From contig NZ_AP019632.1 in assembly GCF_007035645.1 (NCBI RefSeq), positions 2,728,001 through 2,792,000 of the forward strand: 64,000 nucleotides of DNA. Direction: 5' to 3'. Within the stretch, counting starts at the first letter, position 1; every line of letters begins with the position of its first letter. Below, piece after piece: positions 14,098 to 17,406 of this stretch. The notes under the pieces were generated by a model. The model did no database searches, was not told where the DNA came from, and was given only the letters and a program-made list of their open reading frames with translations. The stretch is from Enterobacter asburiae. Lineage in GTDB: Bacteria > Pseudomonadota > Gammaproteobacteria > Enterobacterales > Enterobacteriaceae. The position numbers were made by a program, and so were the translations under genes.

Positions 14098-15126
14098 ATG
14101 TCGGATATTATCCTTGCCCGTGTTTCAGAAACCCTCGCCACTGAACAATCTCTTGAAGGTCTCGTTCGCCAGCTGCTGGAGATGCTGGAGATTGTGACTG
14201 ACATGGAGTCGACTTACCTCACCAAGGTAGATATCGAAGCCCGACTGCAGCATATCCTCTACGCCCGCAACAGCAAGCAGATGACAATTCCTGAGGGGCT
14301 GAGCGTCCCATGGGAGGAAACACTGTGCAAGCGCGCGCTGGATAGCGACACCGTATTCAGCAACGACGTTCCCGAACGCTGGCCGGAGTGCGAGGCGGCG
14401 AAAGCGCTCGGCATTACGACCTACATGAGTATTCCTGTCCATCTTGCGGATGGTTCATTCTACGGAACGCTTTGTGCCACCAGCACGGCCAGAAAGCCGC
14501 TTAGCGAGCGCGGTGAACAGGTCCTGAAGTTATTCGCCGGTCTGATTGCCCAGTCCATTCAGAAAGAGTCGCTGGTAAACCAGCTTCGCGAAGCCAACGC
14601 AGCCCTCATCGCGTACTCTTACACGGATGCCCTTACCGGTTTACCCAACCGTCGCGCCATTTTTGAAGATTTGACCACGCTGTTTTCCCTGGCGCGTCAC
14701 CTTAAACGTAACACCGTCATCGCGTTCATCGATCTGGATGATTTCAAGCTGATTAACGATCGCTACGGCCACGAGGCTGGCGACCAGTTCCTGATTGAAG
14801 TGGGCAAGCGTCTGACGGAAGAAAAACAGCAGGACGATATCATTGGCCGGCTGGGCGGCGATGAGTTTCTGGTGGCGTCGTTGAGCACATCCCACAGCGA
14901 AGGAGATAACGCGCAGGTCACGCTGCTCAAAACGCGTCTCAGCGCCTGTATTGCCGGGGAATACTGGCTGGGTAACGTCAACCTCATTTACCCCGGAGCC
15001 AGCGTCGGCGTTATCGAAGTGGACCCTCAGATAACCGATCCGGACAGCGCATTACGCGACGCAGATGTCGCGATGTATCAGGATAAGAAAGGAAAAAGCA
15101 AAACACGCTTTCTCACTATCGATTAA
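14098..15126 (+). CDS. dgcP: diguanylate cyclase DgcP (GAF-GGDEF)
   Basis: DgcP makes cyclic-di-GMP from GTP. The 342 residues comprise an N-terminal GAF sensory domain (about 15-160) and a C-terminal GGDEF domain (about 175-342), with no membrane segment. The active-site motif RLGGDEF is intact at residues 253-257. No RxxD inhibitory I-site is present five residues before it, so product feedback is probably absent. The frame is open 14 codons further upstream, but the ATG at 14098 gives the E. coli YeaP start (MSDxIxARVS) and has GGGAG about 12 bases upstream. It lies downstream of the candidate sRNA and ahead of yoaK-yoaJ. Confidence 0.93.
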   Translation: MSDIILARVSETLATEQSLEGLVRQLLEMLEIVTDMESTYLTKVDIEARLQHILYARNSKQMTIPEGLSVPWEETLCKRALDSDTVFSNDVPERWPECEAAKALGITTYMSIPVHLADGSFYGTLCATSTARKPLSERGEQVLKLFAGLIAQSIQKESLVNQLREANAALIAYSYTDALTGLPNRRAIFEDLTTLFSLARHLKRNTVIAFIDLDDFKLINDRYGHEAGDQFLIEVGKRLTEEKQQDDIIGRLGGDEFLVASLSTSHSEGDNAQVTLLKTRLSACIAGEYWLGNVNLIYPGASVGVIEVDPQITDPDSALRDADVAMYQDKKGKSKTRFLTID

Positions 15127-15171
15127 CCCCGTACACTCTACGGCGTTACAAAAACCGAAACAGGTGATGAT

Positions 15172-15270
15172 ATGAGAATAGGGATCCTCTTCCCGGTCGT
15201 TATTTTTATAACGGCGGTGATTTTTTTAGCATGGTTTTTTGTCGGTGGTTACGCGGCGCCTGGGGCATAA
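15172..15270 (+). CDS. yoaK: YoaK, 32-residue membrane protein
   Basis: A 32-residue protein (MRIGILFPVVIFITAVIF... ending YAAPGA) with a single transmembrane helix. It is nearly identical to E. coli YoaK and in the same place behind dgcP. AGGTGAT lies about four bases before the ATG. Its stop codon is followed without a gap by the ATG of yoaJ, so the two are translationally coupled. Expression and membrane location of the E. coli protein have been shown; its role is unknown. Confidence 0.88.
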   Translation: MRIGILFPVVIFITAVIFLAWFFVGGYAAPGA

Positions 15271-15345
15271 ATGAGAAAAACGACCCTCGTTATGCTGATC
15301 GTTGCCATCGCGGCATTTGCCGGCACGCAGCTTGGCTGGTGGTAA
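15271..15345 (+). CDS. yoaJ: YoaJ, 24-residue membrane protein
   Basis: One of the shortest known enterobacterial proteins: 24 residues, MRKTTLVMLIVAIAAFAG ending TQLGWW. It has one hydrophobic helix and the conserved C-terminal GWW of E. coli YoaJ. It starts directly at the base after the yoaK stop (TAAATG) and has no separate ribosome site, which implies coupling to yoaK. A terminator follows 12 bases after the stop. Function unknown. Confidence 0.85.
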   Translation: MRKTTLVMLIVAIAAFAGTQLGWW

Positions 15346-15357
15346 ACGCCACTACGT

Positions 15358-15386
15358 AAAAAGGCCGCCATCTGGCAGCCTTTTTT
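15358..15386. terminator. terminator, yoaKJ / yeaQ
   Basis: AAAGGC-C-GCC / GGC-A-GCCTTT, with one internal mismatch, A's before and T's after, lies between convergent yoaJ and yeaQ and can serve both. Confidence 0.7.
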
Positions 15387-15400
15387 AACGCTTGTAAGCC

Positions 15401-15649
15401 TTAGCTTTTGATTTTTCTGTAGATAAACAGAACAACCAGCGCACCAATCACCGCGACAGCGAAACTGCCGAAGTTAAAGCCATCGACTTTGCCAAAACCG
15501 AACAGCGTACTGATCCAGCCGCCGACTACCGCGCCGATAATACCCAGTATTACGGTGACGATAAACCCACCGCCATCTTTGCCCGGCATGATCCACTTCG
15601 CCAGAATACCCGCAATAAGCCCAAAGATAATCCAGGATAAAATTCCCAT
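15401..15649 (-). CDS. yeaQ: YeaQ, GlsB/YeaQ/YmgE family membrane protein
   Basis: An 82-residue inner-membrane protein with three hydrophobic segments: ILSWIIFGLIAGILAKWIMPG, the glycine-zipper-like FIVTVILGIIGAVVGGWI, and FAVAVIGALVVLFIYRKI. It belongs to the transglycosylase-associated (GlsB) family and matches E. coli YeaQ in full. GGAAAG lies before the ATG. A perfect CRP site lies 79 bases upstream. The role is unknown; relatives respond to RpoS and envelope stress. Confidence 0.92.
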   Translation of the reverse strand: MGILSWIIFGLIAGILAKWIMPGKDGGGFIVTVILGIIGAVVGGWISTLFGFGKVDGFNFGSFAVAVIGALVVLFIYRKIKS

Positions 15650-15727
15650 AACTTTCCTCTCTGTATGGTTTTTGTCATTAAATCAACGACACAAAAAAGA
15701 ATAGCACAGGATTTCAGAAAGGAAATT

Positions 15728-15743
15728 TGTGATAAGCATCACA
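15728..15743. promoter_or_regulatory. CRP binding site
   Basis: TGTGATAAGCATCACA is a full-consensus CRP site, centred at 15735.5. It stands between yeaQ (minus strand, 79 bases away) and the candidate sRNA (plus strand) and could activate either. For a plus-strand start near 15797-15799 the centre lies at about -62, the class I position. Confidence 0.75.
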
Positions 15744-15798
15744 ATGAGAGAGTGCGCAATTATTCATCAACAAAAGGGTTCAGCCGCATAAACTGTGG

Positions 15799-15929
15799 GG
15801 TTGCATCTTTTGTTGAGAAAGATTATCTTTCTCAACACTGAATAGTTGAGCGTAACACTCAGGTATTCAGTACGACATTGCTCACATTGCTTCCAGTATT
15901 TCTTGCCCACTCCTGAGTGGGCTTTTTTT
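15799..15929 (+). ncRNA. candidate CRP-controlled small RNA
   Basis: The 284-base gap between yeaQ and the diguanylate cyclase holds no gene but has three well-formed plus-strand hairpins. They are an 11-bp perfect stem at 15811-15837 (TGTTGAGAAAG and its complement, loop ATTAT), a 7+5-bp stem at 15838-15870 (outer arms CTGAATA/TATTCAG), and a terminator at 15905-15929 (GCCCACT/AGTGGGC plus seven T's). The T-run points rightward, so the terminator does not serve the minus-strand cyclase gene. A CATAAA -10 candidate lies at 15787-15792 behind the CRP site. The start near 15799 is inferred. I know no sRNA with this sequence. Confidence 0.55.
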
Positions 15930-15933
15930 CTGT

Positions 15934-17406
15934 TCATACCCCAACAAACGCGTACCGGTTACGTCCTGCGCGTTTTGCCTGGTAGAGCGCCTGGTCAGCG
16001 GCAATAATGATATTCTGCTGGCTGCCCGCGATGTCGACCGCACGCGCGGTAGAGATCCCGACGCTTACCGTCACCCGCCCAAAGGGGCTAAAATCATGCG
16101 CGATTTGCAGGGAAAACACGTTGCGAATGATCGTCTGCGCCAGTCGAAGCGCCTCCTGAATATCCGTATCAGGCAATATCAGCGCAAACTCCTCTCCGCC
16201 GTAGCGCGCCACAATCTGATTATCACGGGTAAGACTCTCCCTGAGACTGTTTCCCAGCAGCGTCAGACACCGGTCCCCTTCCGGATGGCCGTAGTTATCG
16301 TTGTATTTTTTGAAGTAGTCCACGTCCACAATCAGTATCGAAATCGCTGCGTCATGTGCGGCACAAGTCGCGATTTCAGAGAGGATTCTTTCATCAAAAA
16401 TGCGACGGTTGTACAGCCCGGTCAACGCATCCTCGGAAGCGATAATCTTCAGCGCCTTATTATCTCTGGTTTTTCTGGATAAGTCGGAATACAGGAAGTA
16501 TGACGCGACGATAAGTATCGCAGTGAAAACGAAAATGAGCAGCGCCAGCTGAATAGCCTGCTTGCGCCACGGTGCGAGGGCTTCATCAATGCTGACGGCC
16601 ACGGTGGTCACCAGCCCGTAGCGTCGGTTTTTCTCATAGGCGTAAATGCGTTCGATTTTATCAAACCGCGAAACGGAACTGGCTATCCCGGTATTTTGTA
16701 CCTTTAGGTATTTCCTGAAGAGGGGTGAATCAGAAAAAATCGTGCCGACGTAGGTATTTTTAAAGGGGTGACGGACCAGCAGCACGCCGGATTGTGTCGT
16801 TAAGCCAATGACGCCCAGATGACCAATATTAATCTGCCCGTAAAGCGCGAGAAAATTCTCAATACCCAGCGTCACCACCACGACACCGTTAAATGCCCCG
16901 GTGTGGGTTTCAAGGCGACGACTAATGGTAATGACCCATTTGCCATTGGTTCTGCTTACCACGGGCTCACCAATAAAAATCTGCTGATTTTTATTTTCCT
17001 TGTGATAGATAAAAAATGACCTGTCCGATCCTTTGCGTGGGCCTGTAAAAGTTTCATGCAGCGCGGTAAAGATATCGCCCTGAGCGTCGTAAACAACCAC
17101 ATTATTAATCTGGGTAAGAAGATTATCCTGATTATTTATCATCCGCTGAATATTGGTCGCCTGTTGCGGCGTCATGCCATAAATTTCGATTATGTCGGAA
17201 ACGGTAGTAATTAACATTTCGCTTTGGCGCATGATTCCCTCGGTGTAGACATCAAGGGTATGGCTCAGGTTAGCAACGCTGGTATTAATTTGCTGAATTG
17301 ACTGCTGTCTGGACGTGGCAATTTGGACGGCAAGCGACAGCGAGATGATCAATGAGACAATGATGACGGTAATGGTTGTTGTGTAAAAAGTATTTTTCAC
17401 ATGCAC
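15934..17406 (-). CDS. membrane diguanylate cyclase (dCACHE-GGDEF)
   Basis: A sensor enzyme for cyclic-di-GMP synthesis in the inner membrane. One membrane helix near the N-terminus is followed by a ~250-residue periplasmic Cache-type domain, a second helix (ALLIFVFTAILIVASYFLY) and a cytoplasmic GGDEF domain. The active motif RYGGEEF is intact, with GGEEF near residue 403. The inhibitory I-site position reads RDNQ where RxxD is expected, so feedback control may be lost. The frame is open to a TTG at 17448 without a useful ribosome site; the GTG at 17406, with GGTGG eight bases before it, is more likely (490 residues). No E. coli K-12 gene occupies this place. Confidence 0.85.
   Translation of the reverse strand: MHVKNTFYTTTITVIIVSLIISLSLAVQIATSRQQSIQQINTSVANLSHTLDVYTEGIMRQSEMLITTVSDIIEIYGMTPQQATNIQRMINNQDNLLTQINNVVVYDAQGDIFTALHETFTGPRKGSDRSFFIYHKENKNQQIFIGEPVVSRTNGKWVITISRRLETHTGAFNGVVVVTLGIENFLALYGQINIGHLGVIGLTTQSGVLLVRHPFKNTYVGTIFSDSPLFRKYLKVQNTGIASSVSRFDKIERIYAYEKNRRYGLVTTVAVSIDEALAPWRKQAIQLALLIFVFTAILIVASYFLYSDLSRKTRDNKALKIIASEDALTGLYNRRIFDERILSEIATCAAHDAAISILIVDVDYFKKYNDNYGHPEGDRCLTLLGNSLRESLTRDNQIVARYGGEEFALILPDTDIQEALRLAQTIIRNVFSLQIAHDFSPFGRVTVSVGISTARAVDIAGSQQNIIIAADQALYQAKRAGRNRYAFVGV

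Follow-up and report, generated by a model that had tools for sequence, protein, structure and literature searches.

The closest described systems are the RyhB RNAs of Salmonella, in which a second RyhB copy, RyhB-2 (also called RfrB or IsrE), accompanies the first. According to the accessible text of PMC8970401, the Salmonella RNAs are 96 nt (ryhB1) and 98 nt (ryhB2) long, and Fur boxes overlap both promoters, for which PMC2330248 is credited; the paralog is there given a sigma-S input, with sigma-S counteracting Fur at the Salmonella ryhB promoters. In the part of PMC2515195 that tabulates these genes, the entry for ryhB-2 (isrE) gives STM1273 and yeaQ as its two neighbours, with the orientation -> <- ->, while the relevant section of PMC3415461 places the orthologous ryhB between yhhX and yhhY. 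A start site has also been reported, in an excerpt available to us, for a ryhB-2 in Klebsiella pneumoniae. Of two reviews, as far as their accessible passages go, one describes RyhB-2 as specific to Salmonella and the other assigns RfrB to an island confined to S. enterica. No description of RyhB-2 in Enterobacter was found in the portion of the literature searched, in which subscription journals are mostly missing.

The window analysed here is a stretch of 64,000 nucleotides from Enterobacter asburiae, and a scan of its whole length with Rfam yields a single family above its cut-off, RyhB (RF00057), matched at 15866-15929 on the plus strand (70.5 bits against a cut-off of 55, E = 3.7e-11), including the ACGACATTGCTCACATTGCTTCC core. 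A sensitive rescan of 15600-16000 returned RyhB again, aligned over the full model (1-67). Four weak Rfam matches in the same interval, to mir-3173, Ysr49, toxic sRNA and suhB, all fell far below their cut-offs and were rejected. An earlier, sequence-only reading of this stretch had seen here an RNA that it did not recognise; that RNA scores as RyhB. Two RyhB matches are found in the whole genome (4.77 Mb, 2 contigs), the window copy and a stronger one (83.9 bits, locus L001) flanked by genes for a PRK10140 acetyltransferase and a PRK10206 oxidoreductase, which we take to be yhhY and yhhX, respectively. As the site of this stronger copy appears to be the classical one between yhhX and yhhY, the window copy is the second paralog, and it lies divergently beside yeaQ. 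We are highly confident that the window gene encodes a RyhB-2 (RfrB/IsrE-type) small RNA, paralogous to the first RyhB of this genome, for which Fur-type iron control is proposed and whose neighbouring CRP site is most likely that of yeaQ. The gene is predicted to cover 15837-15929 on the plus strand, with a start somewhere within about 15832-15837 and an end at the T-run, giving an RNA of about 93-98 nt.

The divergent neighbour, yeaQ, occupies 15401-15649 on the minus strand (NF007771, 161.5 bits against a cut-off of 129, the E. coli match being annotated yeaQ), and the intergenic region is bounded on the opposite side by a GGDEF-domain gene, also on the minus strand, that ends at 15934. The small RNA gene lies between the two on the plus strand. 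All the elements listed by the sequence-only reading are present at the positions it gave, including a CATAAA box at 15787-15792, and its proposal of an independent plus-strand small RNA gene, with a terminator of its own that does not serve the minus-strand neighbours, is borne out by the RyhB match and the terminator. It was likewise right that there is no open frame, since the ORF list contains none of at least 60 aa inside 15728-15929 on either strand. The cyclic-di-GMP neighbourhood that it mentioned finds no support as a clue to function, the relatives of the gene being found in quite different places. No minus-strand terminator is listed by the terminator scan in 15650-15934, and read-through RNA from the GGDEF gene would therefore be antisense to RyhB-2. 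A search of the plasmid collection with the region gave its best match, 94.7% over 341 bases, in a record of Enterobacter roggenkampii, and the same-genus genomes compared below appear to belong to Enterobacter in a broad sense. A 10.9 kb circular E. roggenkampii 'plasmid' (L068, NZ_CP045066.1) carries genes for an integrase and an IS903B transposase in addition to yeaQ, the small RNA stretch and diguanylate cyclases, and is perhaps an excised circle of the chromosomal region.

To follow the paralog among relatives, RyhB was searched for in 60 genomes (own genome included, 36 of them from the same genus) and matched in 44. Two copies are present in 32 of the 36 same-genus genomes, own included, and a single one in the remaining four under stricter filters, one of these four genomes being 79% complete. 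The second copy adjoins the 5' end of yeaQ in all 32 aligned rows (the window and 31 others), which are nearly invariant from the -35 element through the terminator, the DNA from the CRP site to the -35 varying freely. An exact-pattern scan of species genomes gave 76 named loci, 29 of them with yeaQ beside the gene; the invariance of GAATAGTTGAG, CTC and ACGACATTGCTCACATTGCTT among the 76 is by construction, as they were selected by exact pattern, and the 76 are not independent of the 32 same-genus loci because the two sets overlap. RyhB-2 at the yeaQ site was found in records named Enterobacter, Lelliottia, Leclercia, Silvania, Huaxiibacter, Pseudenterobacter, Intestinirhabdus, Citrobacter sedlakii, C. 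amalonaticus and others; the copies of Klebsiella, Raoultella, Kluyvera, Kosakonia, Proteus and others have no yeaQ in view. When 46 non-yeaQ loci were compared (L119 being left out), 14 had an alcohol dehydrogenase gene of the Klebsiella type just upstream and 32 had neither neighbour. The paralog is thus more widespread and more varied in position than the two reviews cited above say, which suggests that it is old and relocating. Two RyhB-2-type genes at different sites occur in Kosakonia sacchari (L120/L132), Kosakonia cowanii (L110/L138) and Phytobacter massiliensis (L104/L134), and several genomes of the family have three to four RyhB matches.

Upstream of the gene, conservation points to a promoter on the plus strand made of a -35 element TTGCAT (15801-15806; 3/6 to consensus), which is part of a conserved GGGTTG, and, 17 bp past it, a -10 element TATCTT (15824-15829; 4/6 to consensus). 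A sigma-70 promoter scan of 14800-16800 listed none, as so few consensus bases in the proposed TTGCAT-17-TATCTT fall under its threshold. The -10 is covered by a palindrome, TGTTGAGAAAGATTATCTTTCTCAACA (15811-15837), with arms of 11-12 bp around a 3-nt centre, resembling a Fur box. It agrees with the Fur consensus at 14-15 of 19 positions and, over both strands of the 64-kb window, is one of the two top places, tied with 20662; six places in the window have a perfect 11-bp palindrome whose loop does not exceed 4. Its aligned counterparts read ATGATAATGATTATC in Proteus and ATGATAAAGATTATC in several Kosakonia, both close to the Fur pattern. The sequence-only reading had correctly seen this palindrome and had taken it for an 11-bp hairpin of the RNA, but its arms are fully paired (12/12) in just 11 of the 76 named loci, and because their pairing is not kept across loci we regard it as an operator and not an RNA stem. 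As the operator lies upstream of the predicted start, the RNA would be about 93-98 nt long rather than the roughly 130 bases first proposed. A putative Fur operator lying over the promoter, as expected of RyhB, is recognizable and conserved, and the gene is most likely switched by Fur rather than by CRP. In the alignment, a number of relatives have an imperfect inverted repeat, CCACA-N5-TGTGG (15784-15798), immediately 5' of the -35.

The predicted RNA folds into a 5' stem-loop (8+5 bp, 15837-15871), a mostly open seed region and the stem of an intrinsic terminator (7 bp, 15905-15922, followed by seven T's to 15929), all on the plus strand. Folded from 15834, it has a z-score of -3.6, equalled by none of 200 shuffles. 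Covariation was examined in the window copy together with 55 of the 76 loci (56 sequences in all), after removal of 11 exact duplicates and 10 end-clipped loci. Changes on both sides were seen in 7 of 20 pairs, a number reached by 1/500 shuffles; none of 500 shuffles reached either the 97.7% of cells that are paired or the covariation score of 0.183 (mean of the shuffles, 0.083). For further pair types the count, 16, does not stand clearly above the control, 45/500 shuffles reaching it. Pairing is least regular at the innermost position of the terminator stem, which is unpaired in 15/56 sequences. Both the compensatory 5' pairs (columns 1-3 with 33-35) and the terminator fall outside the fixed letters of the search pattern, and the predicted 5' stem-loop and terminator are accordingly backed by covariation. 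Of the three stems for which a covariance search in relatives had been suggested, these two are supported, the second stem of the sequence-only reading being the 5' stem-loop of the RNA, and only the palindrome does not keep its pairing.

The CRP core TGTGATAAGCATCACA (TGTGA-N6-TCACA, 15728-15743) is an exact match and is assigned here to the promoter of yeaQ on the minus strand, for which a putative -10, TATTCT with TGC before it (15698-15703, minus strand), can be picked out by eye, is similar in the alignment and has an E. coli counterpart; the accessible text of PMC3946193 gives another prediction for E. coli yeaQ. The exact core occurs twice in the 64 kb, at 1857 and 15728, the other occurrence (1857-1872) reading TGTGATCACGTTCACA. 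In the 32 same-genus loci the core is exact in 25, has one mismatch in 6 and two mismatches in 1. The site lies 77-80 bp from the yeaQ start in all 29 named loci with yeaQ beside the small RNA, but its distance to the small RNA varies over a 60-bp range (83-143) in these same loci. Among the 47 RyhB-2 loci with no yeaQ in view (L110 and L145 having less than 130 bp of upstream sequence to judge), 45 are without a CRP match (at most 2 mismatches, within 230 bp), the other two being L119, where the yeaQ side is cut by the end of the locus, and L075, where the match is weak. The E. coli record examined has a CRP site, TGTGACAAGCATCACG, 79 bp from yeaQ, with yoaG beyond, and Rfam finds no RyhB in the 3.1 kb around that yeaQ site. 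According to the part of PMC3105977 available, yeaQ appears among the CRP targets newly listed by genomic SELEX of E. coli. The fixed distance to yeaQ, the varying distance to the small RNA, the absence at RyhB-2 loci lacking yeaQ, the E. coli record and the SELEX list together make it most likely, on the sequences compared, that the CRP site belongs to the divergent yeaQ. The site neither follows the small RNA everywhere nor keeps a fixed or helically phased distance from it, as would be expected if CRP activated the small RNA. The CRP site seen by the sequence-only reading is thus genuine, exact and conserved in the genus, but tracks yeaQ better than the RNA it was thought to control.

The presence of the site was also compared between yeaQ loci with and without the small RNA, using 30 loci from 93 genomes with a match and one E. 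coli record. All 8 loci carrying RyhB-2 have the CRP site, and of the 23 others 5 have any CRP match, at the homologous position in 3 (L065, L152 and L160), the other two being weak and of a kind present in 276/3100 shuffles. Of these 23 loci without a RyhB core, 20 (all but L173-L175) were scanned with Rfam, and none of them holds a RyhB. The CRP site therefore goes with one lineage of yeaQ loci, that mostly carrying RyhB-2.

This association (8/8 against 3/23 at the same position) favours joint control of RyhB-2 by CRP and Fur, in which CRP bound at about -101.5 would activate the small RNA besides or instead of yeaQ and carbon limitation would raise its level, a possibility that we find unlikely though not far-fetched. 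Among same-genus loci the core is exact in all but 7, which have 1-2 mismatches. In 23 of the 29 named loci its centre is placed, relative to the predicted start, at -72.5, -81.5 or between -101.5 and -105.5; class I CRP sites can work near such distances. Shared ancestry alone could, however, produce this spacing, and the remaining 6 of the 29 loci have the centre at -95.5, -96.5 or -132.5, whereas the distance to yeaQ is fixed in all 29. Against joint control stand also the scarcity of matches at RyhB-2 loci lacking yeaQ (2/47, one cut and one weak), the E. coli record, which keeps the site without RyhB, and the listing of yeaQ by genomic SELEX. A somewhat more speculative scenario, to which we give little credence, is that a ready-made cassette of about 130 bp, comprising the Fur promoter and RyhB, came to lie next to an already CRP-controlled yeaQ promoter in the Enterobacter-Citrobacter-Salmonella group, and that the CRP site now tunes the small RNA too. 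If so, carbon and iron signals would converge on RyhB-2 but not on the first RyhB, and the cassettes of other genera, placed at other sites, would be without CRP input. The variety of sites raises the question of why some RyhB-2 copies adjoin a CRP target.

We consider it very improbable that this RyhB copy is decaying or silent and lacks a function of its own: across 32 genomes hardly any variation is seen in the promoter, operator, seed or terminator, while the DNA just upstream varies, compensatory changes are present, and expression of the counterparts in K. pneumoniae and Salmonella is on record in the accessible literature. Hardly credible is the original proposal of a CRP-controlled RNA of unknown class and about 130 nt starting from CATAAA, as the strong fold from 15788 that speaks for it (z = -5.1, equalled by 0/200 shuffles) comes in part from the operator palindrome, the arms of which do not stay paired, RyhB is matched above its cut-off, and the CATAAA box, read as a -10, is found at that place in only 7/32 relatives, with the conserved TTGCAT-17-TATCTT promoter downstream of it under the Fur-box-like palindrome. 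A false lead, that of a new class of CRP-dependent small RNA, is thereby replaced by a firm annotation.

Two superoxide dismutase genes are present in the genome, and the one at L177 is of the iron type (420 bits against a cut-off of 348), that is, sodB. It starts GGAGAGAAGCAATGTCGTTCG, in which 11 nt over the start codon, AGCAATGTCGT, are exactly complementary to the RyhB-2 seed; the predicted seed is thus complementary to the sodB start region, as expected of a RyhB. An identical seed is found in the first RyhB copy of the genome, and both copies should therefore act on sodB. Crude duplex energies with the sodB leader lend little weight by themselves, since 10/500 mononucleotide shuffles do as well for RyhB-2 and 36/500 for the first RyhB. 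Loci of the sdhC/sdhD type were also located. By analogy with the RyhB family, from which the steps beyond the sequence are taken, Fe2+-Fur bound to the palindrome would block RNA polymerase at the promoter when iron is plentiful. Under iron starvation the RNA of about 93-98 nt would be made, would bind Hfq via its U-tail and would pair through GACAUUGCUCACAUUGCUUCC with mRNAs of iron-using proteins; this pairing would stop translation and spend the mRNA, so that iron would be spared.

Of the known systems, Spot 42 and CyaR share with the locus a CRP site upstream and nothing else, the Rfam match in the window being to RyhB alone and the CRP site tracking yeaQ. With E. coli RyhB and the first copy of its own genome the locus shares the seed core, the terminator plan and the complementarity to the sodB start, but it differs in locus and, when compared with its own first copy, in the sequence of the 5' stem-loop. 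The RNA and promoter are very similar to those of K. pneumoniae RyhB-2, which adjoins genes for a zinc-binding alcohol dehydrogenase and an SDR protein near fiu and not yeaQ; the K. pneumoniae locus compared is presumably the published ryhB-2 for which a start was reported. In a K. pneumoniae record (L067, 2501-2645 and 2599-2799), a 'hypothetical protein', WP_004151911.1, overlaps the RyhB-2 match on the opposite strand and is likely a spurious ORF. Salmonella RyhB-2 provides the closest parallel; no Salmonella-named locus is among the 76 exact-pattern loci. Salmonella RyhB-2 is likewise a second RyhB copy, on the same side of yeaQ and in the same direction relative to it, with a shared core and a diverged 5' part and, in the accessible descriptions, a Fur box over the promoter and a length of 98 nt. 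STM1273 occupies the other flank there and a GGDEF gene does so here, and in the window a CRP core lies between the small RNA and yeaQ, the Salmonella layout being taken here from the published table alone. The window locus is thus an ordinary RyhB-2, of which the family, the paralog and the location beside yeaQ were already known from Salmonella.
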